Positions 12,630 through 43,215 of a stretch of 64,000 bases of DNA are shown here, piece by piece (the stretch's first letter is position 1; every line of letters begins with the position of its first letter). Source of the stretch: Gaiella occulta (GTDB lineage: Bacteria; Actinomycetota; Thermoleophilia; Gaiellales; Gaiellaceae); the NCBI RefSeq assembly GCF_003351045.1, contig NZ_QQZY01000010.1, positions 1-64,000 of the forward strand. Reading direction: 5' to 3'. A model generated the notes under the pieces. The model saw only the letters and a program-made list of their open reading frames with translations. It did not search any database and was not told the DNA's origin. A program made the position numbers and the translations under genes.

Positions 12630-12636
12630 CAGGCGG

Positions 12637-12648
12637 CGATAGTAGACC
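12637..12648 (+). promoter_or_regulatory. CGATAGTAG start motif before the portal gene
   Basis: CGATAGTAG then ACC, directly followed by the GTG start at 12649. Copy 1 of 8. Confidence 0.7.
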
Positions 12649-14103
12649 GTGCGTCTCACCCTTTTCGACCGCTCCTACGCCTCCGTGCCGACCGGCGATC
12701 TCACCGGGCCCGACCGGGGCGAGGCGGGCGCCGACGGCGAGCAGTGGCTGCGCGACATGCTGCAGGGCGGCCCCGACGTCAACCCCGAGCTGTCGGGCCG
12801 CCAGAAGTTCTTCGTCTACGACGAGATGCGCAAGACGTCGGCGTCGGTGAAGAGCCTGCTGATGTTCTACAAGCTGACCGTCCGGTCGGCCTCATGGTCG
12901 ATCGACCCGCACGACACCGATCCCGTGTCGAAGGTGATCCGCGACATGGTTGCGTGGAACCTCGGCCTCGACGGCGAGGACGGCCAGCTCGACCTGTCGT
13001 GGGGCAAGAGCCTCGAGCAGGGGCTGCAGATGCTCGAGTTCGGCTGCATGTTCGAGGAGCTCGTGTGGGGCGATGTGCGCCGCTGGCGGGACGCCGACGG
13101 CGACGAGCACCTTGTGCGGCCGCTCGCCCGCCTGGCCCCACGGCTGCCGGCGTCCGTGCAGAAGGTCGAGTATGGGTCTGACGGCCGCATCTCCCGCCTC
13201 ACTCAGGGGATCGCGAACACACGGCCGATCCCGGGCGACAAGCTGTCCTACCTCGTGTTCGAGCCCGCCCCCGGAACGTGGGACGGCGTGTCGCTGCTGC
13301 GGCCCGCCTGGGGCGCCTGGAAGCTGCAGAAGCTCCTGATGATCTCGACGGGGATCGGCTGGGACCGCTACTCGGCCGGCACCCCGGTCGTATGGCACCC
13401 CGACACCCCCGAAGGGGCGGAGCGCGCCCGGACGATCGGCCGCAACGTCCGTACCCACCAGCGCGCGTACGTGCATCTGCCCGTCCCGCAGGGAGGCACG
13501 AAGGCCGACTCCGAATGGGCGATCGACATCCTGAACGCCGCCCAGTCGCTCGCGGAGCCGTCGACGCTGCTGCGCTGGTGCTCCGAGCAGATCGCCGAGG
13601 CGGGCCTGCAGCACTTCGCCCGCCAGGGCCTTGGCCAGACAGGCGCGCGCGCGTCGGCCGAGACGCAGGCCGACCCGTTCTATTTGGCCGCACAGGTGCT
13701 CGCCGAAGACCTCGCGCTCGAGCGCAAGCGCCAGGTCGTCAGGCAGCTCGTCGAGGTCAACTTCGGCCGGGAGGCGGCCGACTACCGGATGCCGAGGCTG
13801 ACGGTGTCGAAGCTGCGGGCCCGCAACATCGACGTGATCGCCCGCGCGATCTCGCTGCTCGAGCCGGCAGGCTTCACGTTCACGGACCGCGAGGCGCAGG
13901 ACGACGTCCGCGACCTCCTCGGCCTCACGAATCTCCCCAACGACCTTGAGCAGCACGGCATCCCGCGCGACCGGCTGCTCGCAGCCCTGTCCGCCGCCGG
14001 ACTCGACCAGGCGCAGCTCGCCGCCGTCGTCAACAGCCTGCCCTCCGACGTCGGTGTGGCCCGCAACACCGTGCCGAAGGAGGGCGCGGGGCTCGCAGCC
14101 TGA
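12649..14103 (+). CDS. Portal protein
   Basis: 484 aa, GTG 12649. LSGRQKFFVYDEMRKTSASV near residue 45 and the following LTVRSASWSIDP, then WGKSLEQGLQMLEFGCMFEE and APGTWDGVSLLRPAWGAWKL, match the Mu gp29/DUF935-type portal family. It forms the dodecameric vertex channel for DNA packaging. Position between terminase and the MuF gene supports this. There is no Shine-Dalgarno; the CGATAGTAG word takes that place. Confidence 0.85.
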   Translation: MRLTLFDRSYASVPTGDLTGPDRGEAGADGEQWLRDMLQGGPDVNPELSGRQKFFVYDEMRKTSASVKSLLMFYKLTVRSASWSIDPHDTDPVSKVIRDMVAWNLGLDGEDGQLDLSWGKSLEQGLQMLEFGCMFEELVWGDVRRWRDADGDEHLVRPLARLAPRLPASVQKVEYGSDGRISRLTQGIANTRPIPGDKLSYLVFEPAPGTWDGVSLLRPAWGAWKLQKLLMISTGIGWDRYSAGTPVVWHPDTPEGAERARTIGRNVRTHQRAYVHLPVPQGGTKADSEWAIDILNAAQSLAEPSTLLRWCSEQIAEAGLQHFARQGLGQTGARASAETQADPFYLAAQVLAEDLALERKRQVVRQLVEVNFGREAADYRMPRLTVSKLRARNIDVIARAISLLEPAGFTFTDREAQDDVRDLLGLTNLPNDLEQHGIPRDRLLAALSAAGLDQAQLAAVVNSLPSDVGVARNTVPKEGAGLAA

Positions 14104-14107
14104 TCCC

Positions 14108-14269
14108 GTGCGAGCGAGGCGCCACAGCGGCTGGAAGCACCACGTGAACGTGCGCCGGACGCGGCGCCGGTGGAAGCTCCGCAGACGAGCGTGGGGCGCC
14201 GCGCGCCGCCTGTGGGTCGCTCGGCAGCGTGAGCGCGACACCAGAGTCGACCTGGACGACTGGGCATGA
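14108..14269 (+). CDS. Small Arg/Trp-rich protein, 53 aa
   Basis: GTG 14108 (alternatives at 14144 and 14150); its TGA overlaps the next ATG 14266. Sequence is strongly basic (VRRTRRRWKLRRRAWGAARR). Supported by coupling only. Confidence 0.4.
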   Translation: MRARRHSGWKHHVNVRRTRRRWKLRRRAWGAARRLWVARQRERDTRVDLDDWA

Positions 14270-15633
14270 CCGTCGCGGTCGAGCTGCTCGTCGGCCGCGA
14301 GCTCACCGAGTCTGAGCGGGCGATCGACGTCGTCCGGCTCGACCGTGCGCTCGCCGCCGCGAAGGACGACCTCAACGCTGCCATCCACGACGAGATGCTC
14401 CGCGCCGTCCTCGTGTGGGTCGCGACCGGTTCGCCGCCGCGGCTGGGTGTCAGCCAGGCGATGCGCGACGTGCTCGACCGTCTGCACGATCTCGGCCGCG
14501 AGGAGGGCTGGCTTGAGCTCGAGCGGCTCGGATACGACCTGACGGGCCGCCGCCACTACGTGGAGGAGGGGCCGTCCGACCGGGACGTGCCCGGCTACCT
14601 GACGCGGAACCTGCGGGGCGTGGAGGTGCGGATCGAGGACGAGCTCGTGCGCGCCGACCTCGCCGGCGCTTCACAGCAGGCCGTCGCCCGCGCGGTGATG
14701 GAGATCCCCGGCGCCCGCGACATCGCCTCCAGGGCTATCTCGACGGCCCTGATCAACGGGTTCGCGCAGACGTTCGAGCAGAACGCCGACCTCGTGTCCG
14801 GATGGGCGTACACGGCGGTACTCGACGCTGGCACCTGCGAGGTGTGCCGGCCGCTCGACGGCACCGTCTACGACACCCTCGACGAGCTGTTCCGGGTGCT
14901 GCCGAACTTCGGGCCCAACCCGCGCTGCTACGGCGGCGGCCGCTGCCGCTGCCGCGCCGTCCCGCTGCCAGCCGGCCACGCGCAGGACCAGCGGCGCCCC
15001 TACTCCGCCCAGTTCGAGCTGCCGGCCGACTACTCGTACACGCGAGGCGAGGTGCAGGACGCGATCGCGGCCGCCGGCAGCCTCCACGATCTGCCCACCG
15101 GCGCCGCCGCCGCGAAGGTGATCGTCGACCACGCACTGCCGGCCGACAACCCCGGCTTCTACGACGCCCAGACACTGGAGATCCACATCGCCGCGGCCGC
15201 CGACACGCCCGCCATGACGTTCCTGCACGAGGCGGGCCACTACATCAGCCACCAGGCGCTCGGCCAGCCGGGCGAGCTGAGCGCGCTCACTGAGGAGCTC
15301 GAGCCGTGGCGGCAGGCGGTCGGCGAGACCGAATCGATCCGGCTGCTGCTGGCTCTCCTCGACCTCGACGAGATCCCGGCGGTCACCGGGTCGGGCGAGC
15401 GTGTGAGGGTGCCGGTCGACCACGACTTCCTGCTCTACCTCCTCCACCCCGAGGAGGTGTGGGCGCGCTCCTACGCCCAGTGGGTCGCGACCCGCAGCGG
15501 CAACCAGACGCTGCTGCGCCAGCTTCACCTTGACCGCCGCGGCCTCTACCCTATGCAGTGGGAAGACGACGACTTCGAGCCGGTCGCCCGCGCGATCGAC
15601 AGGATCATGGAGCAGCTCGGATGGACGATCTGA
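14266..15633 (+). CDS. MuF head-morphogenesis protein fused to a zinc-metalloprotease-like domain
   Basis: 455 aa. Residues about 1-245 are a MuF (SPP1 gp7/Mu gpF-like) module ending in the metal site CEVCRPLDGTVYD (from Cys191) with PRCYGGGRCRCRAVPLP. Residues about 250-455 are extra: ALPADNPGFYDAQTLEIHIA, then an HEAGH zincin motif at 321-325 (FLHEAGHYISHQAL), and a later EEVWARSYAQWVA segment that may supply the third ligand. MuF proteins ride in the virion, and C-terminal effector domains are known in this family. The protease role is inference. Confidence 0.8.
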   Translation: MTVAVELLVGRELTESERAIDVVRLDRALAAAKDDLNAAIHDEMLRAVLVWVATGSPPRLGVSQAMRDVLDRLHDLGREEGWLELERLGYDLTGRRHYVEEGPSDRDVPGYLTRNLRGVEVRIEDELVRADLAGASQQAVARAVMEIPGARDIASRAISTALINGFAQTFEQNADLVSGWAYTAVLDAGTCEVCRPLDGTVYDTLDELFRVLPNFGPNPRCYGGGRCRCRAVPLPAGHAQDQRRPYSAQFELPADYSYTRGEVQDAIAAAGSLHDLPTGAAAAKVIVDHALPADNPGFYDAQTLEIHIAAAADTPAMTFLHEAGHYISHQALGQPGELSALTEELEPWRQAVGETESIRLLLALLDLDEIPAVTGSGERVRVPVDHDFLLYLLHPEEVWARSYAQWVATRSGNQTLLRQLHLDRRGLYPMQWEDDDFEPVARAIDRIMEQLGWTI

Positions 15634-15818
15634 CAGGCACGCCACGCACGGTCTCCTCGGGTGAGGAGCTCGTCGACGTGCTGCAGGCCTCCTACGGGCT
15701 CACGCGCGAGCAGGCCGAGCGGCAGGCCCGCCTCGTCGAGGGCAAGTGGGCGAACGACCTGCACGGCGCCCGGCCGCACGTCGACCCGGAGGACTGGCTG
15801 CCGAAGCCGGCCGCCTGA
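15621..15818 (+). CDS. Small hypothetical protein, 65 aa
   Basis: ATG 15621 starts 13 nt before the MuF stop. ELVDVLQASYGLTREQAERQ then ARLVEGKWANDLHG suggests a UBA-like three-helix domain; C-terminus DPEDWLPKPAA. Not recognised. Confidence 0.55.
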   Translation: MDDLTGTPRTVSSGEELVDVLQASYGLTREQAERQARLVEGKWANDLHGARPHVDPEDWLPKPAA

Positions 15819-15826
15819 CGTCCGCG

Positions 15827-15838
15827 CGATAGTAGCCG
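15827..15838 (+). promoter_or_regulatory. CGATAGTAG start motif before the gpG-like gene
   Basis: CGATAGTAG then CCG, directly followed by GTG 15839. Copy 2 of 8. Confidence 0.7.
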
Positions 15839-16330
15839 GTGCCTGACGACTGGTCGATCCGGGTCGACGACGCCGACGCCCGCCGCCAACTGCGGCTGAT
15901 CGAGGTCGCGCTCTCCGACCTGCGGCCGTTCTGGCCCGCCGTCACCCGCCTGTTCCGCGGTTGGATGCGCCGCCAGTTCAACACCGAAGGCGAGTTCGCC
16001 GGCCAGCGCTGGCAGCCGCTCTCCCCCGTGTACGCGCTCCAGAAGGCACGCCGCTACCCCGGACGCGGCATCCTGCACGCATCCGGCCAGCTGCGCCGCG
16101 CCGCCGACGCGCCACTACGCACCGTGTCGCCGCACGCGCTCACGCTCACCATCGACGACGCCGGCAAGGAGCACGGGCCGGTGCTCCAATACCACCAGGC
16201 CGGCGACGGTGTGCCGAGACGGCCGCTCGTGTTCGGCGACCCTCTGCCGCCGCTCGCGGCGATCGAACTCGAACAGGCCGCCGCCGACTACGTCGCCGAG
16301 CTCTTCCGCCGGTCGCGGCCGGCCCGATAG
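15839..16330 (+). CDS. Virion morphogenesis protein, Mu gpG-like
   Basis: 163 aa, GTG 15839. VTRLFRGWMRRQFNTEGEFA then GQRWQPLSPVYALQKARRYP and ILHASGQLRRA, ending with RRPLVFGDP, is the characteristic order of the Mu gpG/phage virion morphogenesis family, which acts in head-tail joining or tail completion. Its stop codon TAG lies inside the third CGATAGTAG copy, which serves the tRNA. Confidence 0.8.
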   Translation: MPDDWSIRVDDADARRQLRLIEVALSDLRPFWPAVTRLFRGWMRRQFNTEGEFAGQRWQPLSPVYALQKARRYPGRGILHASGQLRRAADAPLRTVSPHALTLTIDDAGKEHGPVLQYHQAGDGVPRRPLVFGDPLPPLAAIELEQAAADYVAELFRRSRPAR

Positions 16331-16336
16331 TAGAGG
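16325..16336 (+). promoter_or_regulatory. CGATAGTAG motif directly before the tRNA gene
   Basis: CGATAGTAG then AGG, after which nucleotide 1 of the tRNA (16337) occupies exactly the position that the G of GTG occupies at the spacing-3 gene copies. Copy 3 of 8, and the only one not in front of a protein start. Confidence 0.65.
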
Positions 16337-16409
16337 TGCGCCGTAGAGCAGCTGGTAGCTCGCCGGGCCCATAACCCGGAGGACGCAGGTTCGAATCCTG
16401 CCGGCGCCA
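16337..16409 (+). tRNA. Initiator-type tRNA-Met (anticodon CAT), phage encoded
   Basis: 73 nt, CCA not encoded. D stem GAGC/GCTC, anticodon stem CCGGG/CCCGG with loop CCCATAA, T stem GCAGG/CCTGC with loop TTCGAAT, acceptor GCGCCG paired with CGGCGC. Three features mark bacterial initiator tRNA: position 1 (T) does not pair with position 72 (C); the D stem has A11-T24; and the anticodon stem has GGG at 29-31 paired to CCC at 39-41. Position 33 is C instead of the nearly universal T. It should be formylated and used to start translation. It lies among late genes, just behind a CGATAGTAG copy. Confidence 0.85.
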
Positions 16410-16415
16410 TTCCTG

Positions 16416-16949
16416 ATGGCCGGTGAGATCGCCTTCGTCGCCCCACTGCTGCGCGCCGCCATCGCGACGTTGAAAGCCGGGCTGCCAGCCAGGATCGCGG
16501 CGTTCAACGCACAGACCGAGAACACCGTCGCGCTCGCCGCCCCAGACGTCAGCGCCTACCACTTCGGCGGCAACGACGTCCTCTCCGCCGCCGGCTTCCC
16601 GCAGATCGAGGTGGCCGCCCCCCAGGGATCGTTCGGCGCCTGGACGATCGGCCGCACAGAGGTCGATCACGACCCAGTCGTGAACGTCGTCGTGTGGCAG
16701 GAGGCGCTCCACGGGCAGATCCCGCCCGCTTACGAGGCGGCGCTCGGCTACGTCCGCTGTGTGATCGAAGCGCTGCGAAGCCCGGGTGCGTTCGGCGGCC
16801 AGGTCGAGATCGCCCAGGACAACGGGGTGTTCTGGCGCATCGACGTGCTGCCCGACGACATGACATCCGACGGACGCGAGTTCAGAAAGTGGCGTGTGCC
16901 GGCGCTCATCACGTTCCGCCTCGAGACGGTCGAGAAGTTCGGCTCGTGA
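16416..16949 (+). CDS. Structural protein of the head-tail joining region, 177 aa
   Basis: ATG 16416, six nt after the tRNA. VAPLLRAAIATLKAGLPARI and VVNVVVWQEALHGQIPPAYE, with an RKWRVPALITFRLETVEKF end, resemble small tail-terminator or minor capsid proteins by size and position. The exact family is not recognised. Confidence 0.55.
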   Translation: MAGEIAFVAPLLRAAIATLKAGLPARIAAFNAQTENTVALAAPDVSAYHFGGNDVLSAAGFPQIEVAAPQGSFGAWTIGRTEVDHDPVVNVVVWQEALHGQIPPAYEAALGYVRCVIEALRSPGAFGGQVEIAQDNGVFWRIDVLPDDMTSDGREFRKWRVPALITFRLETVEKFGS

Positions 16950-17263
16950 TCGGTTGTCGTCTGCCTGTCGTCGACGGCCAGACGACCTGGCCGACGGAGC
17001 CGGGCGACTACTGCGGCCCGGTTCGCGGCTACACCGGGGACAAGCAGTCGATCTTCTTCCTGAAGCCGCACGCCCGCGACCCAGGTACGCCCCCACACGG
17101 CCGCGGCGTCCAGCACGTCGCCTGCCCTCCCCATACATACGTCGAGGAGAGCGATGGCTCCCTCTCGATCTTCCCGTCGATCGGCGACACGAGGGGCGAC
17201 GGCAGCGAGGGCTCGGACGGCTGGCACGGGTTCCTCGAGCGCGGCGTGTGGCGCCAGGTCTGA
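16946..17263 (+). CDS. Hypothetical protein, DUF6527-like, 105 aa
   Basis: GTG 16946 overlaps the previous stop. CGPVRGYTGDKQSIFFLKPH, then HVACPPHTYVEESDGSLSIF PSI and DGWHGFLERGVWRQV follow the Cys/His pattern and WHGFL ending I associate with DUF6527 proteins. Role unknown; possible metal binding. Confidence 0.55.
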   Translation: MIGCRLPVVDGQTTWPTEPGDYCGPVRGYTGDKQSIFFLKPHARDPGTPPHGRGVQHVACPPHTYVEESDGSLSIFPSIGDTRGDGSEGSDGWHGFLERGVWRQV

Positions 17264-17267
17264 CCGC

Positions 17268-17279
17268 CGATAGTAGGCC
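17268..17279 (+). promoter_or_regulatory. CGATAGTAG start motif before the protease gene
   Basis: CGATAGTAG then GCC, directly followed by GTG 17280. Copy 4 of 8. Confidence 0.7.
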
Positions 17280-18629
17280 GTGAGCCTCGAAACCCGCGAC
17301 CTGATCGGCGTCGAGATCCTCGCCGTCGGCGGGCCCGTGCACGGCAAGGGCTCTGCGCCCGAGGGCGACTACTGGACAGAAGCCGACCTGCGCGCGATGG
17401 CGCAGGCCGACAGCGAACTCGGCGACGAGCTCAAGCCGCCCAACAAGCTCGGCCACTCTCCCTCCCAGACGCTCCTCGAGAACAGCCTGCCGGCCCCCAC
17501 CGACGGCGAGATGCCGGCCGCCGGCTGGGTCGAGAACGTGCGCGTCAACGATGACGGCTCGAAGCTGCTCGCAGACATCATGGCGGTGCCCGCCACGGTC
17601 GCCGACCTGATCGAGGCGGGCGCCTGGCGCACCCGGTCGGTCGAGCTGTCCCGCGTCACCTCGCAGGCGACCGGCAAGGTGTATGACTGGGTCGTTACCG
17701 GGCTCGCGTGGCTGGGCGGCAAGATGCCGGCCGTCCGCACCCTCGACGACGTCGTCAAGCTGTACGCGCAGGAGGGCCTCGACGACCCGCAAGCCTCCGC
17801 GGTGCTGCTGTACGCCGTCGGCGACGTCATCTGGTCGCCCACCGACGGCTACCAGGCTCTCCGCGGCGCCGTCTCCGACGCCCTCAACGGCCCCTCCGAC
17901 GTGATGGACCCCCGCTTCTGGGTGTGCGACGTCACCGACGGCAAGGCGCTCGTCGAGGACTGGCAGTCCGACCACGCCTGGGTCGTGCCGTTCACGGGCA
18001 GCGCCTCCGACGGCGTCACCGTCGCCGAGCGCGGCGCCTGGATCCCTGCGGCCGCGGCGTGGCTCGAGGCGCCGCGCGCCTACGAGCGGGCGGTCGCGCT
18101 GCGGTCGACCGGAGTTCCCGACCCTGATCCCGATAGTAGGCCCGTGCCAGCCAAGTTCAGCGACGAGCAGCGCCGCACCTTCGCCGAGGCGACCGGCCTC
18201 GAGGCCGACAAGGTGAACGACGAGATGCTCGAGAAGGCCGGTGTTCCCGCCGAGGCTGGGGAGCCCAAGCCGGATCCCGCCCGCGAGAACCAGGACGCGG
18301 ACATGCGCCGCGAGCTCGCCGAGCTCCGCTCAGAGGTGGACGACACCAAGCGCGAGCTGCACGAGGAGCGCCGCAACGCGTTCGTCGAGGACGCGATTCG
18401 CGCCGGCAAGGTGAAGCCTGGCGCCCGCGAGAAGCTCGAGAAGCTCTACGACCGCGACGCCGACGCGGCCCGCGAGTTCGTAGCCGAGCTCGACGCCAAC
18501 GAGGACCTCGCCCGCGAGTACGGCGCAGACGGCCAGGGCGACGGCGACGACGAGCAGGACGAGATCTCGAAGGCATACGAGGCCGACATGGCCGCCCGCC
18601 ACGGCGTCAAGCCCGAGGAGCTGATCTGA
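17280..18629 (+). CDS. Head maturation protease with scaffold domain (Mu gpI-like)
   Basis: 449 aa, GTG 17280. The N-terminal 150 residues (YWTEADLRAMAQADSEL, LGHSPSQTLLENSL, AGWVENVRVNDDGSKLLADI, then WRTRSVELS) resemble Mu gpI-type prohead proteases. Residues about 185-285 form an extra domain (DPRFWVCDVTDGKALVEDWQ) not recognised. Residues 289-449 are a highly charged coiled-coil (ELAELRSEVDDTKRELHEER) typical of scaffolds. A CGATAGTAG copy lies in frame just before residue 289, so the scaffold is probably also made alone. Confidence 0.8.
   Translation: MSLETRDLIGVEILAVGGPVHGKGSAPEGDYWTEADLRAMAQADSELGDELKPPNKLGHSPSQTLLENSLPAPTDGEMPAAGWVENVRVNDDGSKLLADIMAVPATVADLIEAGAWRTRSVELSRVTSQATGKVYDWVVTGLAWLGGKMPAVRTLDDVVKLYAQEGLDDPQASAVLLYAVGDVIWSPTDGYQALRGAVSDALNGPSDVMDPRFWVCDVTDGKALVEDWQSDHAWVVPFTGSASDGVTVAERGAWIPAAAAWLEAPRAYERAVALRSTGVPDPDPDSRPVPAKFSDEQRRTFAEATGLEADKVNDEMLEKAGVPAEAGEPKPDPARENQDADMRRELAELRSEVDDTKRELHEERRNAFVEDAIRAGKVKPGAREKLEKLYDRDADAAREFVAELDANEDLAREYGADGQGDGDDEQDEISKAYEADMAARHGVKPEELI
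18131..18143 (+). promoter_or_regulatory. CGATAGTAG motif inside the protease gene
   Basis: CGATAGTAG then GCCC (one base longer than the other copies), directly followed by an in-frame GTG at 18144. It encodes residues around DSRPV of the long protein. Copy 5 of 8. Confidence 0.65.
18144..18629 (+). CDS. Nested scaffolding protein from an internal GTG start
   Basis: 161 aa, same frame and stop as the protease gene. The evidence for a separate start is the CGATAGTAG copy, otherwise reserved for gene or tRNA starts, placed 4 nt before GTG 18144. The product is the charged coiled-coil alone. Known precedent: lambda C/Nu3, where the scaffold is made from an internal in-frame start in the protease gene. 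Not shown experimentally here. Confidence 0.6.
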   Translation: MPAKFSDEQRRTFAEATGLEADKVNDEMLEKAGVPAEAGEPKPDPARENQDADMRRELAELRSEVDDTKRELHEERRNAFVEDAIRAGKVKPGAREKLEKLYDRDADAAREFVAELDANEDLAREYGADGQGDGDDEQDEISKAYEADMAARHGVKPEELI

Positions 18630-19039
18630 TGGCCGTTTCCGATGGCGTCAACCCGCTCTACACGCCCGGCGCGAAGGTCACCATGAAGGTGTCGGCCGCC
18701 GTCACGGCAGGCCAGCTCGTCGAGGTGTCCGGCTCCGGCACGATCGGCCCGGCCGCCGCCAACTCGCGGAAGGTCGTCGGGGTCGCGCTCCAGACCGGAT
18801 CGGCCGCCAACGACCTGATCGCCGTGCAGCTGCTCGGCTACATCTTCAAGCTCAAGGCCGCCGGGGCGATCACCGCCGGTGACGAGGTGTCCGCCGGCGC
18901 CGCAGGCACGGTCGCGACGCAGGCCGCAGCAGCAGGCGCCACCGCCGCCGACATCAACAATGCTCGCTCCGTCATCGGGGTCGCGCTCGAGAACATCGCA
19001 GACACCGTCACAGGACCGATCCTCGTGGGGAGGGCGTAA
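18629..19039 (+). CDS. Head decoration protein (DUF2190-like)
   Basis: 136 aa, TGATG start. The short repeated beta pattern (VSAAVTAGQLVEVSGSGTIG, then VVGVALQTGSAANDLIAVQL and GDEVSAGAAGTVATQA, ending VIGVALENIADTVTGPILVG) is that of DUF2190-type capsid cement proteins. It lies between scaffold and capsid, as expected. Confidence 0.8.
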   Translation: MAVSDGVNPLYTPGAKVTMKVSAAVTAGQLVEVSGSGTIGPAAANSRKVVGVALQTGSAANDLIAVQLLGYIFKLKAAGAITAGDEVSAGAAGTVATQAAAAGATAADINNARSVIGVALENIADTVTGPILVGRA

Positions 19040-19042
19040 CCG

Positions 19043-19975: not shown

Positions 19976-20292
19976 TGCGCGCCGTCGTCAGCGGCGTCGA
20001 CACCTACCGCTGGGTCGCGGACGGCGAGATCCGCTCCGCCGACCGCGGCGACGAGATCGACGTGTCGGCCGACGAGTTCGACCGTGTCGAGGGTGCGCTC
20101 TCCAAGCCCGGCAGCCGCGACGCGCAGGAGCCAGACGGCGCCAAGCAGCCGCCCGGCTGGCCGAGCACGCACAACGATCTGCAAGCGCTCGCCGACAGCC
20201 TCTCGTTCGAGTGGCCCGAGACGAAGATGACCGTCGCGGCCAAGATCGCGGCGCTCGAAGCAGCCGGCCACACTCCGCCCGCAGCCGAGTAA
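19975..20292 (+). CDS. Small hypothetical protein after the capsid gene, 105 aa
   Basis: TGATG start. VSGVDTYRWVADGEIRSADR GDEI then a helical C-terminus MTVAAKIAALEAAGHTPP, which looks like a short SAP/HeH-type helical end found on small head proteins. Possibly a head-completion protein. Confidence 0.55.
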   Translation: MRAVVSGVDTYRWVADGEIRSADRGDEIDVSADEFDRVEGALSKPGSRDAQEPDGAKQPPGWPSTHNDLQALADSLSFEWPETKMTVAAKIAALEAAGHTPPAAE

Positions 20293-20307
20293 CCCCCGGG
20301 GGCTAGC

Positions 20308-20847: not shown

Positions 20848-20858
20848 GCGGCCGAGGC

Positions 20859-20870
20859 CGATAGTAGGCC
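20859..20870 (+). promoter_or_regulatory. CGATAGTAG start motif before gene 20871
   Basis: CGATAGTAG then GCC, directly followed by GTG 20871. Copy 6 of 8. Confidence 0.7.
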
Positions 20871-21212
20871 GTGGCCAGCAAGGTGTCTGCTCTTCTGCTC
20901 GACGCGTCCGTTGCCGCGGGCGTCGAGGCCGTGACGTTCGCTGGGTTCCCGGGCAGGTTCGTTCCCGGCGAACCGGTCGAGGTGAAGCGCCTCGCCGCTG
21001 CTGCCGGCGTCGACGCGGAGGCTCTCCTGGCGTTGATCGAGGAGCTCGAGCTTCCGGTCGACGTCGTGCAGGTGAAGGCTGGGTCGGGGCCGCTCCCTGT
21101 CGCGGACAACCACATGGGTGGCGGCGAGACGTTCGAGCTGCCGCCGGCTGAGGAAGGCGACGCGCCTGCCGACGACGAGGCCGCAGTGGCTGAGGAAGGC
21201 GCAGGCTCCTAG
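20871..21212 (+). CDS. Small tail-region protein, 113 aa
   Basis: GTG 20871. The first half (LLDASVAAGVEAVTFAGFPG then VKRLAAAAGVDAEALLALIE) resembles a small structural domain; the C-terminus is acidic and probably disordered. Its TAG overlaps the tail-tube GTG. Not recognised. Confidence 0.55.
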   Translation: MASKVSALLLDASVAAGVEAVTFAGFPGRFVPGEPVEVKRLAAAAGVDAEALLALIEELELPVDVVQVKAGSGPLPVADNHMGGGETFELPPAEEGDAPADDEAAVAEEGAGS

Positions 21213-23138: not shown

Positions 23139-23218
23139 GCGGCCTGATGGCATCGGTGTAGCATCGGCCGGCCGCCGCAGCGAAGAGGGCGGTTATAACG
23201 CCGCACGGGCGAAGTCCT

Positions 23219-26443: not shown

Positions 26444-26473
26444 CGAACTGAGACACAGGGAGGGTGATAGCTG

Positions 26474-27172
26474 ATGGCTGACGGCATACCAATCACTGCC
26501 GGTGCTGGCACGACGGTCGCGACAGACGACACGGGCGCGACCGGGCACGTGCAGCTGTTCAAGCTGGCGTACTCGGCGGACGGGTCGCCGACGCTGGTGC
26601 CGGCGGACGCGAACGGCCTGCTCGTGAACACGGAGCTGACGACCGCGGACGTTGACACGGGCGCGGGCACGGACACTCGTGCTGTGGTGGGGCTGGTGTT
26701 GGCTGCCGCGGGGGGCGGGCAGCTCGCCCCGGGCGACGCGACGAACGGGCTGAAGGTGCAGGTGGCGACGATGCCTGCGGCGGCGGACACGACGGACTCG
26801 ATTTCGGCGGCCGCGCAGACGGGCGTGCTGAAGTCTGGGCTCGCGTCGGTCACCGTGAAGAAGGCGAAGGCGAACGTTGCTGCGTCGACGACTGACAGCG
26901 TGCTTGTCGCGGCCGTGGCGGGCAAGAAGATCCGTGTCATCAGCGTGCGCTTGCACGCGGGCGGCACGGCCACCAACGTGACGTTCAACAGCAAGCCTGC
27001 TGGTGCTGGTGTTGCGATTTCGCCGACGTACGCTTGCGGCGCGAACGGCGGCCGGTCGGACTCGTCCCCGCAGGGAGATTTCGAGTTCGAGACGGCGGTG
27101 GGCGAAGAGTTGTCTGTGACGACGGGGGCGGGCTCCACGGTCGGCGTCGGCGTCTCGTACGTGGAGGTGTAG
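26474..27172 (+). CDS. Tail protein, 232 aa
   Basis: ATG 26474 with GGGAGG upstream. Beta-rich and Thr/Ala/Gly-rich (TAGAGTTVATDDTGATGHVQ; VLVAAVAGKKIRVISVRLHA; ETAVGEELSVTTGAGSTVGV). This is typical of minor tail or baseplate-decorating proteins. No specific family. Confidence 0.6.
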   Translation: MADGIPITAGAGTTVATDDTGATGHVQLFKLAYSADGSPTLVPADANGLLVNTELTTADVDTGAGTDTRAVVGLVLAAAGGGQLAPGDATNGLKVQVATMPAAADTTDSISAAAQTGVLKSGLASVTVKKAKANVAASTTDSVLVAAVAGKKIRVISVRLHAGGTATNVTFNSKPAGAGVAISPTYACGANGGRSDSSPQGDFEFETAVGEELSVTTGAGSTVGVGVSYVEV

Positions 27173-27175
27173 CGG

Positions 27176-28381
27176 GTGGCTTCGGTCGAACTTCAGACCG
27201 TCACGTCTTCGACCCCGTTCGTCCACGCACCAGGCCTTGTGAGGGCCGGGTCGCGCTACTACGCGATCTACGCCGACGGCACGAACCTCGTCTACAAATA
27301 CAGCGACGACAACATGGCGACATGGTCGTCGTCTGTGACTATCGCCACTGGGTCGGCCAACAACAAGCCCGCGGCGGTGTACGACGCGACTAACGGGCGT
27401 CTGAACATCTGCTACGCGGGCGGAAACTCGACGTCTACGTCGCTGCGTTTCCGTGCGATCACGACGAATGTCGCGTCCGGTGTTCCGGGGGCGTTGACAA
27501 CGGAGCAGACGATTGACGCTGGCGGCACCAATCTCGGCGTCATCTACCCGTACATCGTGCATTCGGACACGGCCACGAATCCGCGCTACTGGATTGTGGC
27601 GTTCAAGGTGACGGCGGCGTCTACGTATGAGACGCGCGCATGGTTCGTTGCCGCGGGCAGCGCTGCTGACACGGCGGCGAACTGGAGCACGACGAACTTC
27701 ACGAACGTGTTCGCTAATTCGAGCAGCAACACGCAGCGTGGCGCTGCTGCCGCATTCTGGACGGCATCCGGATCGCCGAAGTTGACGATCGTCTCGTTCG
27801 GCACGTCGGGGGTCCAGATGAAGTCGGTGACGTTCGACCCGTCCGCTGCCACGCCGACTCCGGGGACGATCACAACGTTCGGCACAGCACCAACGTCAGT
27901 TGACATTTTCGCGAACGGCCCGATGATCGCGGCCGCAGGCGTCACTGATGCGTGCGTCATGTGCTACACGGACACGTCGGGCAGCGGCACGGTCGCCTTC
28001 TACTCGACTTCTGACGGCACAACGTGGACGGCGCTCACGTCTGGGTCGGTAACAGGCGGACGTTGCTCGCTCGGGGTGTCCGCGGCAGGAGATGTGTACG
28101 CGGTACACACGGATACCTACGGTGCGATCGGCACGACGGCGCAGACGTTGAGCAGCCGCAAGATCGCGTCGCCGTACACGACGCTTGGCGCAGCATCAGC
28201 TTTTTCCGACACGGCGGGCAACCCGGTGTCTGTCGCGATCAGTCTCGGGTCGAGTCTGCTGGCGTGCTTGTATCGGGGCAGCACGGCGTCGCCGTACACA
28301 CTGCGGTCGGACTCCGTGTCGATCGCCGCGGCAGCGCCTGCCGCCGGCCCGCGGGACCTGCTGCTGCTTGGGGCGGGCTGA
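27176..28381 (+). CDS. Beta-propeller-like tail protein (BNR/Asp-box type)
   Basis: 401 aa, GTG 27176. Repeating blades of about 50 residues with an Asp-box-like YSDDNMATWSSSV near residue 41 and similar STSDGTTWTALTSG near residue 278. Sialidase-type catalytic Arg residues are not evident, so a glycan-binding tail adhesin is more likely than an enzyme. Confidence 0.65.
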   Translation: MASVELQTVTSSTPFVHAPGLVRAGSRYYAIYADGTNLVYKYSDDNMATWSSSVTIATGSANNKPAAVYDATNGRLNICYAGGNSTSTSLRFRAITTNVASGVPGALTTEQTIDAGGTNLGVIYPYIVHSDTATNPRYWIVAFKVTAASTYETRAWFVAAGSAADTAANWSTTNFTNVFANSSSNTQRGAAAAFWTASGSPKLTIVSFGTSGVQMKSVTFDPSAATPTPGTITTFGTAPTSVDIFANGPMIAAAGVTDACVMCYTDTSGSGTVAFYSTSDGTTWTALTSGSVTGGRCSLGVSAAGDVYAVHTDTYGAIGTTAQTLSSRKIASPYTTLGAASAFSDTAGNPVSVAISLGSSLLACLYRGSTASPYTLRSDSVSIAAAAPAAGPRDLLLLGAG

Positions 28382-30093
28382 TGGCGGGCGAGACAGACCT
28401 CGACCTCGACTTCGAGGCGGACGCCGTCGCGTCGAACGTGTCCAGCTTCAGCAAGTTCTCCGGGCTGGAGCGCAACTCCGCGCACCAGAACGCGGTCGTG
28501 TCATCGCCGGTGCGGTCGCCGCGCCTGCACGCCGGCTACTTCGAGGTGCATCCGGGCGACGTGTGGGCGGGCAACAACACGGTGCGCGCGCTCGCCAATA
28601 GGTCTGACACAGGCGAGACGACCGGGCAGGAGTACTGGTGGGCCGTCTCGTTCCGGGTGCCGTCGACGGTGAACCCGATCCGCGACAACCTCGTGTGGGA
28701 GCTGCACCATCCCGCGTCCCTCTACAATCTCGCGGCGCTCGGCGTCGCCCCGCACGCCATCCACCTGCGCAACGAGGCAGGCACGATGAAGGTCGAGTGC
28801 AGGGTGGCGGCCGGCAACGGCACCGTCGGTGTCGGCTACGCGAACTGGGCGCCGAACAACGTGCTCGCCACGCTCGTCTACGACGTGTGGATCTCCGTGC
28901 TCGTCCACATCGTGTTCACGGAGACGTCGACCGGCACGATCGAATACTGGATTGACACGACCGGCACCGTCGACTCGACGTTCGGGACCGGGGCGCCCGC
29001 CTACTCGCAGTATTCGGCGCAGACGATGCCGTACTGCAACTCGGCGAACGTCCACAACGTCTCCCTCTACACGGAGGTCGGCCTGTACACGGGCGGCTCG
29101 ACGACGGACAAGCAGTCGATCATCTACGTGGACGGGGTGTGGCGGCGGCGCACCCGAGCGGACGCGGTCGCGAAGCTGACCGGCGGCGGGTCGAGCCCCG
29201 CGAACCCGAACGACGCGCAGCCTGCCGGCTACCTGGGCGGCAACTACACCGTCACGGGCTCATCGCTGAACGGGTCGCAGGCGGACAAGCAGCGGTGCTC
29301 TAAGATCCTCGTGCCGACGACCGGCACCGTCAACCAGCTGCGCGTCTACATCGAGCCGCAGGCTGTCGTCGGGACGGAGCTGGTCAAGCTGGCGGTGTGG
29401 CGCGGCACGAGCGCAGACCCGTCGGGCGCGCCGGTCGGCACGACTGCCGAGCTTGCGTTCACGTCATCCTCGCCGGCCGGATGGTATGTCGCGGATGTGC
29501 TGACGCCGTTCGCGGTCACCGCGGGCGAGACCGTGTGGGCGGGCATGATCAACGGCGGCGCGGCGAACATCGCGTTCGAGCGGTACGCCGTCTCCGCAGG
29601 CGCGTTCCGGCTGATGGCGGCACCGTACGCGAACGGGCCGATCGCCTGGGATACCGCCGCCGACCAGGTGTTCGACCTCGACCAGTTGATCAACCTGATC
29701 GGCACCGCCGGCGCAGGCACCGCCCCGGCGAACACGGTGCCACCGACGGTGGGCGGCGCGGCCCAGGTGGGACAGTCGCTCACAGTGGCGAGCATCGGCA
29801 CTTGGACGGGCTCGCCGTCGACGTTCGCCTACCAGTGGCGGCGCAACGGCGTGGCGATCTCGGGCGCGACAACGTCCACCTACGTGTGCTCGACCGCCGA
29901 TATCGGCAGCACGATCCGCTGCACCGTCACCGCCGCCAATGCGACCGGCTCCGCGTCCGCCGACACGGCCGACACGGCCGCGGTCATCGCGGCCTACGCT
30001 CGGATCATCGGCCTCGCCACGTCCGGCCGCACGTCCGCGCCTCGCACCGTCGGACCCGGCCGCACCGCAGGACAGGGAGGCGGCGGCGGATGA
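28381..30093 (+). CDS. Tail fibre/spike protein, polysaccharide-lyase-like plus Ig-like domain
   Basis: 570 aa, ATG 28381 (TGATG). Residues 1-245 form a jelly-roll-like module with EYWWAVSFRVPSTVNP and RDNLVWELHHPAS, reminiscent of polysaccharide lyase folds. A middle beta domain follows (VNQLRVYIEPQAVVGTELVK). Residues about 455-535 are an Ig-like repeat (QSLTVASIGTWTGSPSTFAY QWRRNG). Probably receptor binding; catalysis not shown. Confidence 0.65.
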   Translation: MAGETDLDLDFEADAVASNVSSFSKFSGLERNSAHQNAVVSSPVRSPRLHAGYFEVHPGDVWAGNNTVRALANRSDTGETTGQEYWWAVSFRVPSTVNPIRDNLVWELHHPASLYNLAALGVAPHAIHLRNEAGTMKVECRVAAGNGTVGVGYANWAPNNVLATLVYDVWISVLVHIVFTETSTGTIEYWIDTTGTVDSTFGTGAPAYSQYSAQTMPYCNSANVHNVSLYTEVGLYTGGSTTDKQSIIYVDGVWRRRTRADAVAKLTGGGSSPANPNDAQPAGYLGGNYTVTGSSLNGSQADKQRCSKILVPTTGTVNQLRVYIEPQAVVGTELVKLAVWRGTSADPSGAPVGTTAELAFTSSSPAGWYVADVLTPFAVTAGETVWAGMINGGAANIAFERYAVSAGAFRLMAAPYANGPIAWDTAADQVFDLDQLINLIGTAGAGTAPANTVPPTVGGAAQVGQSLTVASIGTWTGSPSTFAYQWRRNGVAISGATTSTYVCSTADIGSTIRCTVTAANATGSASADTADTAAVIAAYARIIGLATSGRTSAPRTVGPGRTAGQGGGGG

Positions 30094-31349
30094 GCCTACT
30101 CCTGCTGCTCCGGCAGACTGCAGCAGCGTCCGTGGGGATCGCGCTTGCGACCGCGAAGGCCGAGATCTCCTGGTCGGCCGCCCCACGCGGATCGTTCGTC
30201 CTCAACACCTCCGCGTTGGACAGCACTGCCACGCTCGGCATCAGCGCGTTCGACGACGCCTTCGGCGGCCCCTACGACGACATCACACCCTACCTCGACG
30301 AAATCACCATCGAGAGCGGCCGCTCCGACGACATCGCCCTCCTCAACGAGAGCAGCTGCACGCTCGTGCTCCGCGACCGCACAGGCCTGTTCTCGGCCGA
30401 GAACCCTGCCTCACCACTGTACTCGGACATCGCCGCGCGTCTCCACCCGGTGCGCGTGAGCATGACAGTCGCCGGCACGACCTACCGGCAGTTCTACGGC
30501 TGGGCGCGCCGCATTCGCTGGCAGCCCCGGCGGCGGTCAGGCTACACCACGATCGAGTGCGTCGACCTGCTGTACTGGCTTCGCCGCACGAGCCCGACGA
30601 TCGCGGCGACCGGACCGACCACGGTCGGCGCGGCGATAGGATTGATCCTCGATGCGGTCGGCTGGATCGACCCGGCGATGCGGTCGATCGCGACCGGCGA
30701 CCCGATCGCGAACTTCTCAGCGGACGGGTCGAAGACCGCTCTGACGCTGATCCAGGAGCTCCTCGACTTCGAACGCGGCGTCTTCTGGGTTTCCGGCAGC
30801 GGCGTCGCGACCTACGAGACGCGCCATGCGCGCGCGTTGAAGCTGACGGCCGGCACGATCGCGAACGAAATGCAGGCGGTCGGCCCGGGCGTCGACGCCG
30901 ACCGAGTGCGGACGAAGGTGACGGTCACCCGCACCGGAGGCGTCCCCCAGGTCGTGGAGGACGCGGCCGCTGCGAACCTGTGGGGGCCGTCTGACGGCGA
31001 CTCGATCGTCTCCTCCTACCTTGCGTCGGACGCGCAGGCGGCCGAGCTCGGGAACTACGTGATCTCGCAGACGAAGAGCCCGCGGTCGCCGCTGCGGTCG
31101 CTCGAGTTCGACGGCCGCACGACCGCGCTTCTCACGCAGCTGCTCGCCCGCGAGTTCGGCGACAAGGTGACGGTCACGGAGGCGGCTGGCGGGACGGCCG
31201 GCAGCTTCCACGTCGAGCAGCGCCGGCTGAAGGTGTCGGCGGGATCACGGCTTGTTGAGGGCTCGTGGATCGTGTCGCGCGCGTCGGCGAACACGGTGTT
31301 CGTGGTCGACACTTCCGCGTTGGACAGCGGCGCCGTGGTCGCCTACTAG
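30090..31349 (+). CDS. Minor tail protein, 419 aa
   Basis: ATGA overlap with the fibre gene. PYLDEITIESGRSDDIALLN, LRDRTGLFSAENPASPLY and FYGWARRIRWQPRRRSGYTT are typical of actinophage minor tail proteins that connect tail tip parts. A short repeat, TSALDS, occurs near both ends (about residues 41 and 408), encoded by near-identical DNA (TCCGCGTTGGACAGC). Confidence 0.7.
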   Translation: MSLLLLLRQTAAASVGIALATAKAEISWSAAPRGSFVLNTSALDSTATLGISAFDDAFGGPYDDITPYLDEITIESGRSDDIALLNESSCTLVLRDRTGLFSAENPASPLYSDIAARLHPVRVSMTVAGTTYRQFYGWARRIRWQPRRRSGYTTIECVDLLYWLRRTSPTIAATGPTTVGAAIGLILDAVGWIDPAMRSIATGDPIANFSADGSKTALTLIQELLDFERGVFWVSGSGVATYETRHARALKLTAGTIANEMQAVGPGVDADRVRTKVTVTRTGGVPQVVEDAAAANLWGPSDGDSIVSSYLASDAQAAELGNYVISQTKSPRSPLRSLEFDGRTTALLTQLLAREFGDKVTVTEAAGGTAGSFHVEQRRLKVSAGSRLVEGSWIVSRASANTVFVVDTSALDSGAVVAY

Positions 31350-31357
31350 GAGGGCGC

Positions 31358-31369
31358 CGATAGTAGAGG
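31358..31369 (+). promoter_or_regulatory. CGATAGTAG start motif before gene 31370
   Basis: CGATAGTAG then AGG, directly followed by GTG 31370. Copy 7 of 8. Confidence 0.7.
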
Positions 31370-31780
31370 GTGCCGATCATCGACCAGCGACACATGTGTG
31401 GCGCGAGCGTCCACGCGACCGTCGGCGACGTCGAAGTCTTCTGGGACGCCTACCTTGCCGAGCGGGGGCTGCAGCCGTTCGAGGCGGGCGTCGTCCTGCC
31501 CGCCTACGTGTCGGATGGGCGGTGGGTGGCCGACTGTGTTCGCTGCGCGTCGGGCGTTGCGTGCTGGCCTGAGAATCCGCGCGGCTGCTGCCTCGCCTGT
31601 GGCGCCGTGTACACGGTCGTCTTCCCGCCGGCGGCGGACATCGCGAGGGCGGAACGGGTGCTCGACGCGAGGCCAGCCGGCGCCGCGAACTGGCGGCCCG
31701 ACCTCGGTGAAGACGTCGCCGACTTGAAGGTCGAGAACCTCGTCCGTGCGGTGCCGCTCGAACCGGCGTTTGAGCTATGA
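31370..31780 (+). CDS. Zinc-ribbon-like hypothetical protein, 136 aa
   Basis: GTG 31370. CVRCASGVACWPENPRGCCL ACG gives four or more Cys in a zinc-ribbon spacing in the middle. The remainder is not recognised. It ends 3 nt before the end of the reverse-strand HNH gene. Confidence 0.6.
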   Translation: MPIIDQRHMCGASVHATVGDVEVFWDAYLAERGLQPFEAGVVLPAYVSDGRWVADCVRCASGVACWPENPRGCCLACGAVYTVVFPPAADIARAERVLDARPAGAANWRPDLGEDVADLKVENLVRAVPLEPAFEL

Positions 31781-31782
31781 GA

Positions 31783-32343
31783 CTACGCCGCGAACCTTCC
31801 CGCAGCGTCACGCGATCTCCGCGCGGCGCGGCCGTGCATCCCCTCGTGCTCGGCCGCGTCCATGCGCCGAAGGTTCTCGGCCCGGTCGTCGTCCCGGATG
31901 CCGTTCTCGTGATGAACGTGCTCACCCGGCTGCACGACATCATTCGGATGTGTCTCGTTCCACACGGCGTGGGATCGGGGGATCGAGAAGGTGCCGCCAT
32001 GCCGGAGCGCCGTCGGCCACATCGCGGCCTGTTCCGGTGTGATCGTTCGCCGAACGTAGCCACCTTTCACGGTCCACTCACCGCCTCCCCAGCGATGATG
32101 TTCCTCTCGCGCCTTACCGGGTTCGCCACGATTCCACGTTTCGTGTCCAGGCTTGAAACGGGTCTCTTGGCCGCCGCCGTTGTGGCCGTGAGCGAACCGT
32201 GCTGGCTTCAGCTGCTTCGACACCGGCGCGATCAGCGTCCCACAGCCGCATTCGCACGGGATCTTCGGCATCGCCTCAATCTCCGCCATCCGTCGCGCGT
32301 AGTACCGGGCTTGACGCTCTCCGGATGTAAGTCGCTTAGACAT
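31783..32343 (-). CDS. HNH (homing-type) endonuclease, reverse strand
   Basis: 186 aa. HVHHENGIRDDDRAENLRRM is the HNH catalytic core of phage free-standing homing endonucleases. An N-terminal CECGCGTLIAP plus HGHN is a possible zinc site, and WTVKGGYVRRTITPEQAAM is a NUMOD-like segment. It is inserted against the direction of late transcription between two tail genes, so it is likely a selfish insertion. The plus strand here reads only as a shadow. Confidence 0.85.
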   Translation of the reverse strand: MSKRLTSGERQARYYARRMAEIEAMPKIPCECGCGTLIAPVSKQLKPARFAHGHNGGGQETRFKPGHETWNRGEPGKAREEHHRWGGGEWTVKGGYVRRTITPEQAAMWPTALRHGGTFSIPRSHAVWNETHPNDVVQPGEHVHHENGIRDDDRAENLRRMDAAEHEGMHGRAARRSRDAAGRFAA

Positions 32344-32375
32344 GGGGACATTATGACGGTCCGGGCGGTCATCTA

Positions 32376-32966
32376 GTGGCTTGGAGCGTCCCCAGGACGT
32401 GGATTGCGGGCGAGGTGCTGACGGCGGCGCTGCTGAACACGCATCTCCGCGACCAGCTGTTGGCGCTGCGCGAATCCTATGGTACGACGCTGCCGGCGTC
32501 TCCCGCCGACGGCGATGTCGCGGTGCTCGTGGATTCGCTCACAGCACCCACCTACCAGTGGCGGTTCCGCTACAACGCTGGCTCGTCGGCGGCGGACAAG
32601 TGGGAGTGCTTGGGCGGCGTGCCTGCGAAGGTCTCCGGCGCGACGCTGACGGTTGCGTCGACGACGGCGACCGACTACACGGGCGGCAGCATCACCGTGC
32701 CGCGGCAGGGCGTGTACGACTGCCGGTTCGGCGCCAACGCGACGAACACTGGGTCGGGGGCGAAGTACCTGGATTTGATCGCCGCCGGGACGACCGTGAA
32801 GACGCAGACAATGGGCAACCGCGCCGACAGCTTCGGGTCGGGTGAGGCGCGGACGGCGAGCATCGCGGCGGCGTCGGCTATCAAGATCGCGGGCCGCGGC
32901 GGCGACGCCACCTCGTCGACGTTCGACAGTGGCTACCTGTTCGTGATGCCGGTGAGGGTGAGTTGA
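32376..32966 (+). CDS. Minor tail/fibre protein, 196 aa
   Basis: GTG 32376. The N-terminal WSVPRTWIAGEVLTAALLNT HLRDQLLAL is a recurrent anchor sequence of actinophage tail proteins; the rest is a beta-sandwich-like region (VPRQGVYDCRFGANATNTGS; SGYLFVMPVRVS end). Confidence 0.7.
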   Translation: MAWSVPRTWIAGEVLTAALLNTHLRDQLLALRESYGTTLPASPADGDVAVLVDSLTAPTYQWRFRYNAGSSAADKWECLGGVPAKVSGATLTVASTTATDYTGGSITVPRQGVYDCRFGANATNTGSGAKYLDLIAAGTTVKTQTMGNRADSFGSGEARTASIAAASAIKIAGRGGDATSSTFDSGYLFVMPVRVS

Positions 32967-32983
32967 TCTTGCCGGGTTGCGGC

Positions 32984-32995
32984 CGATAGTAGGCC
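32984..32995 (+). promoter_or_regulatory. CGATAGTAG start motif before the endolysin
   Basis: CGATAGTAG then GCC, directly followed by GTG 32996. Copy 8 of 8. Confidence 0.7.
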
Positions 32996-43186: not shown

Positions 43187-43215
43187 TGATGGAGGCGGCG
43201 GGAATCGAACCCGCG
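43187..43215. repeat. attR, 29-bp core within the ssrA 3' end
   Basis: Identical to 1146-1174. The first three bases lie just beyond the mature tmRNA 3' end and the remainder encodes the acceptor 3' strand and T-arm, so recombination restores a full tmRNA gene. Confidence 0.95.

Follow-up and report, generated by a model that had tools for sequence, protein, structure and literature searches.

The 9-nt word CGATAGTAG, repeated ahead of late genes in a prophage of Gaiella occulta, is probably the -10 element of a minimal late promoter that lacks a -35 element, gives rise to leaderless mRNAs and is read by a split sigma factor of the phage itself. By computation we established the repeat with its strand and its offsets from gene starts, showed that it is conserved at orthologous genes and varies in concert within each phage, and identified the accompanying sigma-like genes.

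Results

The word in the Gaiella occulta prophage

The window, the whole stretch of DNA that was analysed, comprises 64,000 nt (positions 1 to 64,000 of contig NZ_QQZY01000010.1, assembly GCF_003351045.1) of the 3.03-Mb genome of Gaiella occulta, a groundwater bacterium carrying the prophage. The 42-kb prophage lies between two matching copies of a 29-bp repeat of the tmRNA end, the attL core at 1146..1174 (+) and the attR core at 43187..43215 (+), the latter within the host tmRNA gene. It holds eight copies of CGATAGTAG, all on the same strand, and all eight coordinates given by the first-pass annotation were exact. Its total of eight is right for the prophage, but a ninth exact copy at 59583..59575 (-), outside the prophage and some 36 nt ahead of a hibernation-factor ORF, had been missed. 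Nine copies in 64 kb compare with 0.08 expected, and nine were reached in 0 of 100 shuffles, which bears out the earlier estimate of well under one copy by chance. The count with 0-1 mismatch on both strands, which had been suggested at the same time, yielded a single extra site, at 680-688 (-). The whole genome also contains nine copies, leaving one outside the prophage against approximately 5.6 predicted from base composition, so that the host chromosome is nearly free of the word. A chance or compositional repeat was ruled out by the shuffles, the genome count and the base-composition expectation. The form CGATAGTAGNNNGTG occurs six times in the genome, every time within the prophage, and was matched once each in 5 of 128 other genomes of the order. 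No copy of the word lies in the prophage at 1146-12636 or beyond 32992.

All eight prophage copies lie on the + strand, and the spacings reported earlier were reproduced: 3 nt and then GTG at six copies, 4 nt and then GTG at one, and 3 nt and then a tRNA at another. The copy at 12637..12645 precedes GTG 12649 of the portal gene (Portal_Mu, 1.2e-25), and that at 15827..15835 precedes GTG 15839 of a virion morphogenesis or tail_S-like gene (Phage_tail_S, 0.0015, under its cut-off). At 16325..16333 an exact copy is followed by tRNA-Met (CAU), identified by ARAGORN at 16337..16409 (+), whose first base takes the offset of a start codon. The copy at 17268..17276 precedes GTG 17280 of the capsid protease/scaffold gene (Mu-like_Pro, 3.1e-10), and a further exact copy, at 18131..18139, lies within this protease ORF, 4 nt ahead of the in-frame GTG 18144. 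This GTG opens a nested ORF of 161 aa (18144..18629, +) that ends at the protease stop codon; likened to Mu-type genes, its product is scaffold-like. The remaining copies precede GTG 20871 of a head-tail region gene with orthologues in relatives (20859..20867), GTG 31370 of a gene without a Pfam match (31358..31366), and GTG 32996 of a 227-aa ORF without a Pfam match (32984..32992), a putative lysis enzyme as read by eye. The first-pass annotation had overlooked the in-frame copy at 18131, the phage sigma genes and the variation between phages.

Variation of the word among related phages

The comparison covered 12 distinct phages; G404 (17,915 nt, all contained in G403) and L160 (a 4-kb fragment with one copy) were left out. 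Each phage has its own version of the word, namely CGATAGTAG, CGATACTAG, CGATACTCG, CGAAYCTAG or CGACATTCG, and CGANNNT is constant across versions, with C, G, A and T at -13, -12, -11 and -7. Among the sister phages, four core words are clearly distinct (GATAGT, GATACT, GAAYCT and GACATT). Conservation of the word follows function, not letter.

The late strand of the 12 phages carries 92 copies and the opposite strand 0. A start codon stands 3-10 nt downstream in 81 and a tRNA-Met-like gene adjoins in 5, while the other 6 have neither a start of at least 40 codons nor a tRNA at the expected place. One of the counted starts, G405 10233 (offset 8), is doubtful. The tRNA-Met copies belong to five phages, three of the tRNAs being identified by ARAGORN (offsets 3, 7 and 3) and two by eye; the tRNA-Met of G049 has no word. 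The closest start codons to the G407 copy at 14099 are 33 and 88 nt downstream, and at the copies L156 9438 and L157 8221 the first ATG of the gene lies at 57 and 61 nt, where a nearer non-canonical start is possible. A copy inside the capsid-protease gene, ahead of the in-frame start of the scaffold-like ORF, was found in all 12 phages, and the nested arrangement is kept in each. A prediction made before the scan result for three new phages (L156, L157 and L158) was known held in its main part, with 10, 8 and 7 copies, 0 in reverse, and the sigma pair in each. It failed in details: each of the three has two word forms (C or T at position 5), and an ORF of 49 or 45 codons lies between the word and portal in L156 and L158.

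The exact 15-mer CGATAGTAGGCCGTG occurs in 25 stretches of viral contigs, where the 9-mer is multiple in the window's own record and G130 only and single elsewhere. A capsid profile search of genome contigs found no relative, and a capsid search of 399 genomes of the class returned G000 and G049 only. The cultured phages Powerball, BigNuz and Zaheer, with distant capsid similarity, have no 9-mer common to at least three of the 25, 27 and 31 annotated forward starts in their first 25 kb, so this part of their genomes gave no sign of the system.

Offsets, start codons and upstream sequence

At offset 3 there are 42 GTG and 5 ATG codons. At offset 4 there are 12 ATG codons, each preceded by G, and 7 GTG codons, each preceded by C (Fisher P 3.3e-5). 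That GTG is found mainly at offset 3 and that each offset-4 ATG follows a G is what a fixed +1 G predicts. The spacing from the -10 element to this proposed start is 5 nt, shorter than usual by one or two.

Over all 92 sites, none of the columns between -60 and -3 upstream of the word exceeded the null, so a common -35 is absent, in line with the first-pass remark that no shared -35-like block is visible. Nor did a shared -35 emerge when 8 contigs with at least 6 sites were tested one by one (P 0.11-0.87; L156-158 not among them). Shine-Dalgarno-like cores precede 6 of 58 word genes versus 11 of 22 other prophage ORFs, the latter hand-chosen and with mechanically assigned starts. AGGAG is contained in none of the five words, but at 3 of the 92 copies it is completed by the bases that follow; two of the three copies in G049 continue into GAG, giving AGGAG, a Shine-Dalgarno core. 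The word as a ribosome-binding site was rejected, as the words have no such core.

Sigma-like genes upstream of terminase

Overlapping sigma-2-like and sigma-4-like ORFs were found in 10 of 10 contigs that reach upstream of terminase, the sigma-4-like ORF always in the +1 frame relative to the other. In the window, the sigma-region-2-like ORF spans 9594..10313 (+), with the sigma-like fold predicted for its N-terminal half (~9594-9968) and a zinc-ribbon-like C-terminus (~10209-10313). The sigma-region-4-like ORF, predicted to form a helix-turn-helix, spans 9958..10308 (+) with ATG 9958 as candidate start. Pfam Sigma70_r2 matches three of six sigma-2-like members, the window's own not among them, and the G130 and G401 orthologues are below the cut-off. 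The region-2 model gave a best E of 1.9 in Foldseek; in a second structure comparison the 14 best rows were sigma factors, as judged from entry titles. Its Z scores were 8.1 against sigma-28 and 7.9 against T4 gp55 (86 residues, 3.1 A) and reached 8.4, a range in which helical matches can be accidental. A region-2 sequence profile found nothing useful among solved structures. For the region-4 model, solved sigma-4 domains came out on top in Foldseek (probability up to 0.99, E 0.024). Sigma70_r4_2 was matched by four of six sigma-4-like members; members also matched generic helix-turn-helix families, and the window's own ORF matched HTH_38 only (0.0069). Although the fold of the sigma-4-like part is one that reads DNA, a -35 is not visible.

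A search of 50,697 phage records (E 0.01) found a match for neither ORF, and the sigma-2-like ORF was not matched in the G049 genome (73% complete, its contig bearing three word copies). A programmed +1 frameshift fusing the two ORFs was set aside as unneeded, though possible, because in each of the six phages read by eye a start codon (ATG, TTG or GTG) lies close to where the sigma-4 ORF begins. The prophage also encodes a second, single-piece sigma factor of 169 aa (1330..1839, +; Sigma70_r2, 2e-9), the first ORF inside attL.

The relation of sigma to word class was compared across phages. The G401 capsid protein falls with those of the window, G130 and G402 (72, 71 and 69%, compared with 55-58% to those of L156-158), whereas its sigma-2 clusters with L156-158 (support 1.00) and G401 uses the L156-158 word. 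The GAAYCT class is tracked by portal and terminase as well as by sigma-2, so linkage is possible. In the weakly supported sigma-2 tree the GATACT class is not one clade, with L151 (the left part of G402) grouping with the window, and in the sigma-4 comparison L156 and G401 are not grouped.

Discussion

We propose that each copy of the word, mostly CCGATAGTAG in the window and with the core G(-12)A(-11)NNNT(-7), would act as the -10 element of a minimal late promoter of the phage that has no -35. RNA polymerase with a phage-encoded specificity factor would open this element and initiate some 6 nt past the T, in most cases at a G that either opens a GTG codon or immediately precedes an ATG. The mRNA would be leaderless, or have a leader of a few nt, and would be translated without a Shine-Dalgarno sequence; at the tRNA gene the transcript would begin at the 5' end of the mature tRNA or close to it. 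The specificity factor is most likely the split sigma encoded by 9594-10313 and 9958-10308, and the nested scaffold-like gene would be expressed from the promoter inside the protease gene. From the sequences we infer the site of transcription start, leaderless translation, late timing and the reading of this word by this sigma. The -10-type, leaderless model was one of two offered by the first-pass annotation, and it is now well supported by the concerted change of the word between phages with CGANNNT retained, the five tRNA copies, the fixed-G rule, the 12 of 12 scaffold starts and the sigma-like genes.

Instead of the split sigma, the factor reading the same -10-only promoter might be a host sigma or the single-piece phage sigma of 1330-1839. 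The host has 29 Sigma70_r2 matches above the Pfam cut-off outside the prophage, the 1330-1839 product is a clear Pfam match, clearer than the split sigma, and one host copy of the word is spaced from a gene as a promoter might be; the extended word (GCCGATA/GCCGACAT) is also identical to the first part of the sigma-28 -10 octamer. However, the word alters in concert within each phage and is nearly missing from the host chromosome (1 copy), a sigma-28-type -35 is not visible, and the nine relatives' contigs searched, which are mostly partial, yielded no 1330-1839 sigma. We regard this reading as unlikely, while giving it more weight than the two that follow. The other first-pass model is a translation-initiation element; in the form considered here, a phage protein or RNA would bind such a start-associated sequence in the mRNA. 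This model would account for the tight, single-strand placement directly ahead of start codons and has a precedent in cluster K phages (PMC3203893, in excerpt), and AGGAG is formed in G049. It is quite improbable in view of the tRNA-gene copies, the rarity of Shine-Dalgarno-like cores ahead of word genes, an offset rule for GTG and ATG that fits a fixed +1 G and not ribosome binding, and the copies far from starts in G407 and, apparently, in L156 and L157. Least credible of all is an operator or stoperator-like repressor site that would keep the late genes of the prophage silent. L5 and other cluster A phages do have repeated asymmetric sites, called stoperators (excerpts of PMC3203893), but here A(-11) and T(-7) are conserved, the flanking parts of the prophage have no copies, and the sites stand within one or two bases of start codons and of the 5' ends of tRNAs.

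The proposed -10-only promoters can be set beside known systems. Excerpts on T4 describe late promoters that are short and -10-like without a -35, with a sigma-2-like gp55 and a separate sigma-4-acting factor, gp33, that has no sequence similarity to sigma and a widely separated gene (PMC2988020; PMC7892883). The candidate promoters here are alike in having no informative column upstream, and the predicted sigma-2-like fold with weak Pfam matches, beside an overlapping sigma-4-like ORF, resembles the gp55/gp33 pair. Unlike T4, the phage is temperate, has 42 kb and infects a deep-branching actinobacterium; its word is CGANNNT, its sigma parts are overlapping neighbours, the second predicted to be sigma-4-like by fold, and start codons and tRNAs lie directly at the candidate promoter. 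The proposed pair is also like other two-part sigmas in kind, since SPO1 gp33/gp34 and B. subtilis SigO/RsoA are specificity factors in two polypeptides.

The sigma-28 -10 octamer has the consensus GCCGATAA, with GCCGACAT at E. coli aer (PMC2859248, in excerpt), and both agree with the upstream part of the word. Before CGA, G and C are preferred at 66 and 69 of 92 copies, as in the sigma-28 consensus, while the last base, like the CGAAYCT words, departs from it. Unlike in FliA/WhiG-type systems, the words are genome-specific, and no TAAA-type -35 was found eleven bases upstream of the -10 over the 92 sites. The likeness to cluster K start-associated sequences that the first-pass annotation noted finds no support as a sign of kinship. 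As excerpted, these are 13 bp long (GGGATAGGAGCCC) with an AGGAG core, lie in the non-structural half, mostly in one orientation and typically 3-7 bp before starts (PMC3203893), and in Adephagia can have a separate putative -35/-10 promoter upstream of them (PMC11373665). The likeness is confined to a repeated word a few bp before starts in mostly single orientation, whereas the five words here have no AGGAG and their copies are in the structural and late region. In contrast to the actinobacterial leaderless mRNAs described, the leaderless state would here extend to a whole phage late regulon. The titles and abstract openings among the open-licence matches listed do not describe this system.

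On balance we lean towards a wider reading, that in this temperate actinophage lineage a two-gene, overlapping split sigma drives a regulon of -10-only promoters joined directly to start codons and to a tRNA, and that sigma and promoters diverge together, giving each phage its own word throughout its sites. This would amount to late transcription of the T4 kind in a phage group unrelated to T4. If true, this would be an apparently independent case of late transcription from -10-reduced promoters, with start codons and tRNA ends at the transcription start, and would stand in contrast to the unexplained cluster K start-associated sequences. The internal promoter would account for expression of the nested scaffold-like gene. 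Furthermore, the four core words would make it possible to read sigma-2/-10 specificity from the sequence and would provide a natural series for the recognition code.

Results

Eight copies of a 9-mer, CGATAGTAG, had been reported in the first-pass annotation before late-gene starts and a tRNA gene of the Gaiella occulta prophage, and all eight, with their offsets (the distance from the end of the word to the start codon or first tRNA base), were borne out when checked in the window. The whole genome (3,028,529 bases in 34 contigs, the window being from contig 10) contains nine copies, and the ninth lies outside the prophage on the minus strand at 59583..59575. It precedes the ORF 59547-59155 (Ribosomal_S30AE, a hibernation factor) by some 36 nt and may be either a normal host promoter or a chance occurrence. 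Two copies of a 29-bp repeat, at 1146 and at 43187, bound the 42-kb prophage. Its integrase gene adjoins the host tmRNA, and its late genes are of the Mu-like head type (portal, MuF, virion morphogenesis, protease/scaffold, cement, capsid and tape measure). An IS21 IstB-like ATPase fragment occupies the contig edge at 101-406, just outside attL, and five copies of AAGGGGTTCC at 7982-8087 form tight arrays with inverted stretches that are replication-origin or operator-like.

Capsid and portal profiles recovered related phages from the viral contigs of IMG/VR and, as a single contig, from a genome of the same family. The sister phage G130 carries the window's word nine times, all on the late strand, and the versions of other relatives are CGATACTAG in G049 (three copies), CGATACTCG in G402, G403 and G407 (one G407 copy with a final A), CGAACCTA/CGAATCTA in G401, and CGACATTC in G405 and G406. 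The G049 prophage contig, L069, also contains AGACGAATATGCC three times, at 2893, 2950 and 4822. In the first nine distinct phages, 65 copies were forward and none reverse (73 forward when the duplicate G404 is counted in). The G130 word was identified by exact string, those of G049, G402, G403, G407, G405 and G406 as repeated k-mers (G049 and G402 having first been noticed with GATA-type patterns, before k-mer support), and that of G401 by reading start regions. Because of how the words were found, their invariance within each phage comes partly from pattern choice; the likeness between phages is less affected, with G401 as the weakest case.

A prediction on the word and on a sigma-like gene pair upstream of the terminase was set down before the result of a portal scan, which gave five new contigs. 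L151 turned out to belong to G402, as its left part (99.9% over 6,295 nt), and L160 (4 kb) has one copy. The other three, L156, L157 and L158, are new phages with ten, eight and seven copies of CGAAYCTA, none reverse, and all have the sigma pair; they are mutually related, their largest shared stretches being 87-89% alike, and are therefore not three fully independent cases. The prediction did not hold in two details: each of the three has two word forms, not one, and a 49- or 45-codon ORF intervenes between the word and the portal in L156 and L158.

Combined, 12 distinct phages have 92 forward copies and none reverse. At 81 of the 92, an ATG, GTG or TTG start whose frame stays open for 40 or more codons, or to the contig end, follows 3-10 nt downstream; a tRNA follows at five and something else at six. 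At three of these six, G402 2681, G403 19214 and G407 28377 (oriented contigs), the word heads a mini-ORF of 8-10 codons; its stop codon overlaps the start of the following gene (GTGA or ATGA), as though ribosomes were passed to that gene from a leaderless leader peptide. At G407 14099 the next starts are 33 and 88 nt downstream, and at L156 9438 and L157 8221 the gene's first ATG is 57 and 61 nt away, with homology extending nearer the word.

Gene positions recur as well. Within the protease ORF, copy 18131 is followed after 4 nt by an in-frame GTG, the start of a scaffold-like C-terminal product of 161 aa, and this internal start has a word in 12/12 phages. The protease itself has one in 11/12, the exception being G130, where a tRNA and its word lie about 100 nt upstream. 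Portal data exist for 11 phages, nine of which have the word directly before that gene. It also precedes the orthologue of the gene at 20871 in all eight phages in which tblastn finds it; G401, G405 and G407 have a copy at the equivalent place after the 20308 gene.

ARAGORN placed a tRNA-Met directly after the word at offset 3 in the window and in L157, and at offset 7 in G130. Read by eye, tRNA-Met-like genes with unusual T arms are present at L156 9183-9260 and L158 9342-9420; ARAGORN made no tRNA-Met call for either, and in L156 it gave an overlapping tRNA-His on the opposite strand. In G405 a tRNA that may have decayed occupies about 10243-10315, with a word copy on either side, and the counted start at G405 10233 (offset 8) may represent such a tRNA relic instead of a gene. 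The distant relative G049 has a tRNA-Met without the word (L069 1802-1875), preceded by TTAGGCT, which resembles an ordinary actinobacterial -10. The tRNA-Gly called at 20931-21002, within ORF 20871-21212, is probably spurious.

Conservation is seen at G(-2), C(-1), CGANNNT, A/C, G, a faint GCC-like stretch and the start codon, and none of the upstream columns from -60 to -3 rose above the null. At offset 3, GTG outnumbers ATG by 42 to 5; at offset 4, ATG is preceded by G in 12/12 and GTG by C in 7/7. This rule fits a fixed +1 purine, mostly G; the G stands one base further downstream in G406 and in some of the G405 sites.

In G130 and G401, Sigma70_r2 matched below its cut-off at loci preceding the terminase. 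These loci are conserved in the window, where the counterpart is ORF 9594-10313, which is overlapped in the +1 frame by the sigma-4-like ORF 9958-10308. Both parts are present in 10/10 contigs extending upstream of the terminase, always in this order and frame. A zinc ribbon returns to the first frame in five of six phages read (sigma-2-like, sigma-4-like and zinc ribbon in frames X, X+1, X), a layout that may reflect either overlapping genes or programmed frameshifts. Sigma-2 domains were the best match to the region-2 model (pLDDT 74) in a second look, with T4 gp55 third, and sigma-4 domains were the best, not significant, match to the region-4 model (pLDDT 90.5; E-value 0.024). In the whole-genome Sigma70_r2 search, the prophage match was at 1345-1551, in ORF 1330-1839; this is a separate, complete sigma-70-family gene, the first ORF inside attL, and no counterpart was found in the relatives' contigs searched.

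Discussion

In the simplest account, the word would be a -10-only promoter with the start codon placed at the transcription start. Mycobacteria translate leaderless mRNAs with ATG or GTG starts efficiently (PMC4633059), and T4 late transcription provides the model for a split sigma at promoters lacking a -35 (PMC2988020, PMC7892883). We infer that this particular phage sigma pair reads the word. G401 is a natural experiment, having a capsid similar to the window's and to those of G130 and G402, and a sigma-2 and word similar to those of L156-L158; it is suggestive only, because portal and terminase group as sigma-2 does. Phage late promoters served by a phage specificity factor are of an already known kind; the combination and the phage lineage appear new among the sources searched.
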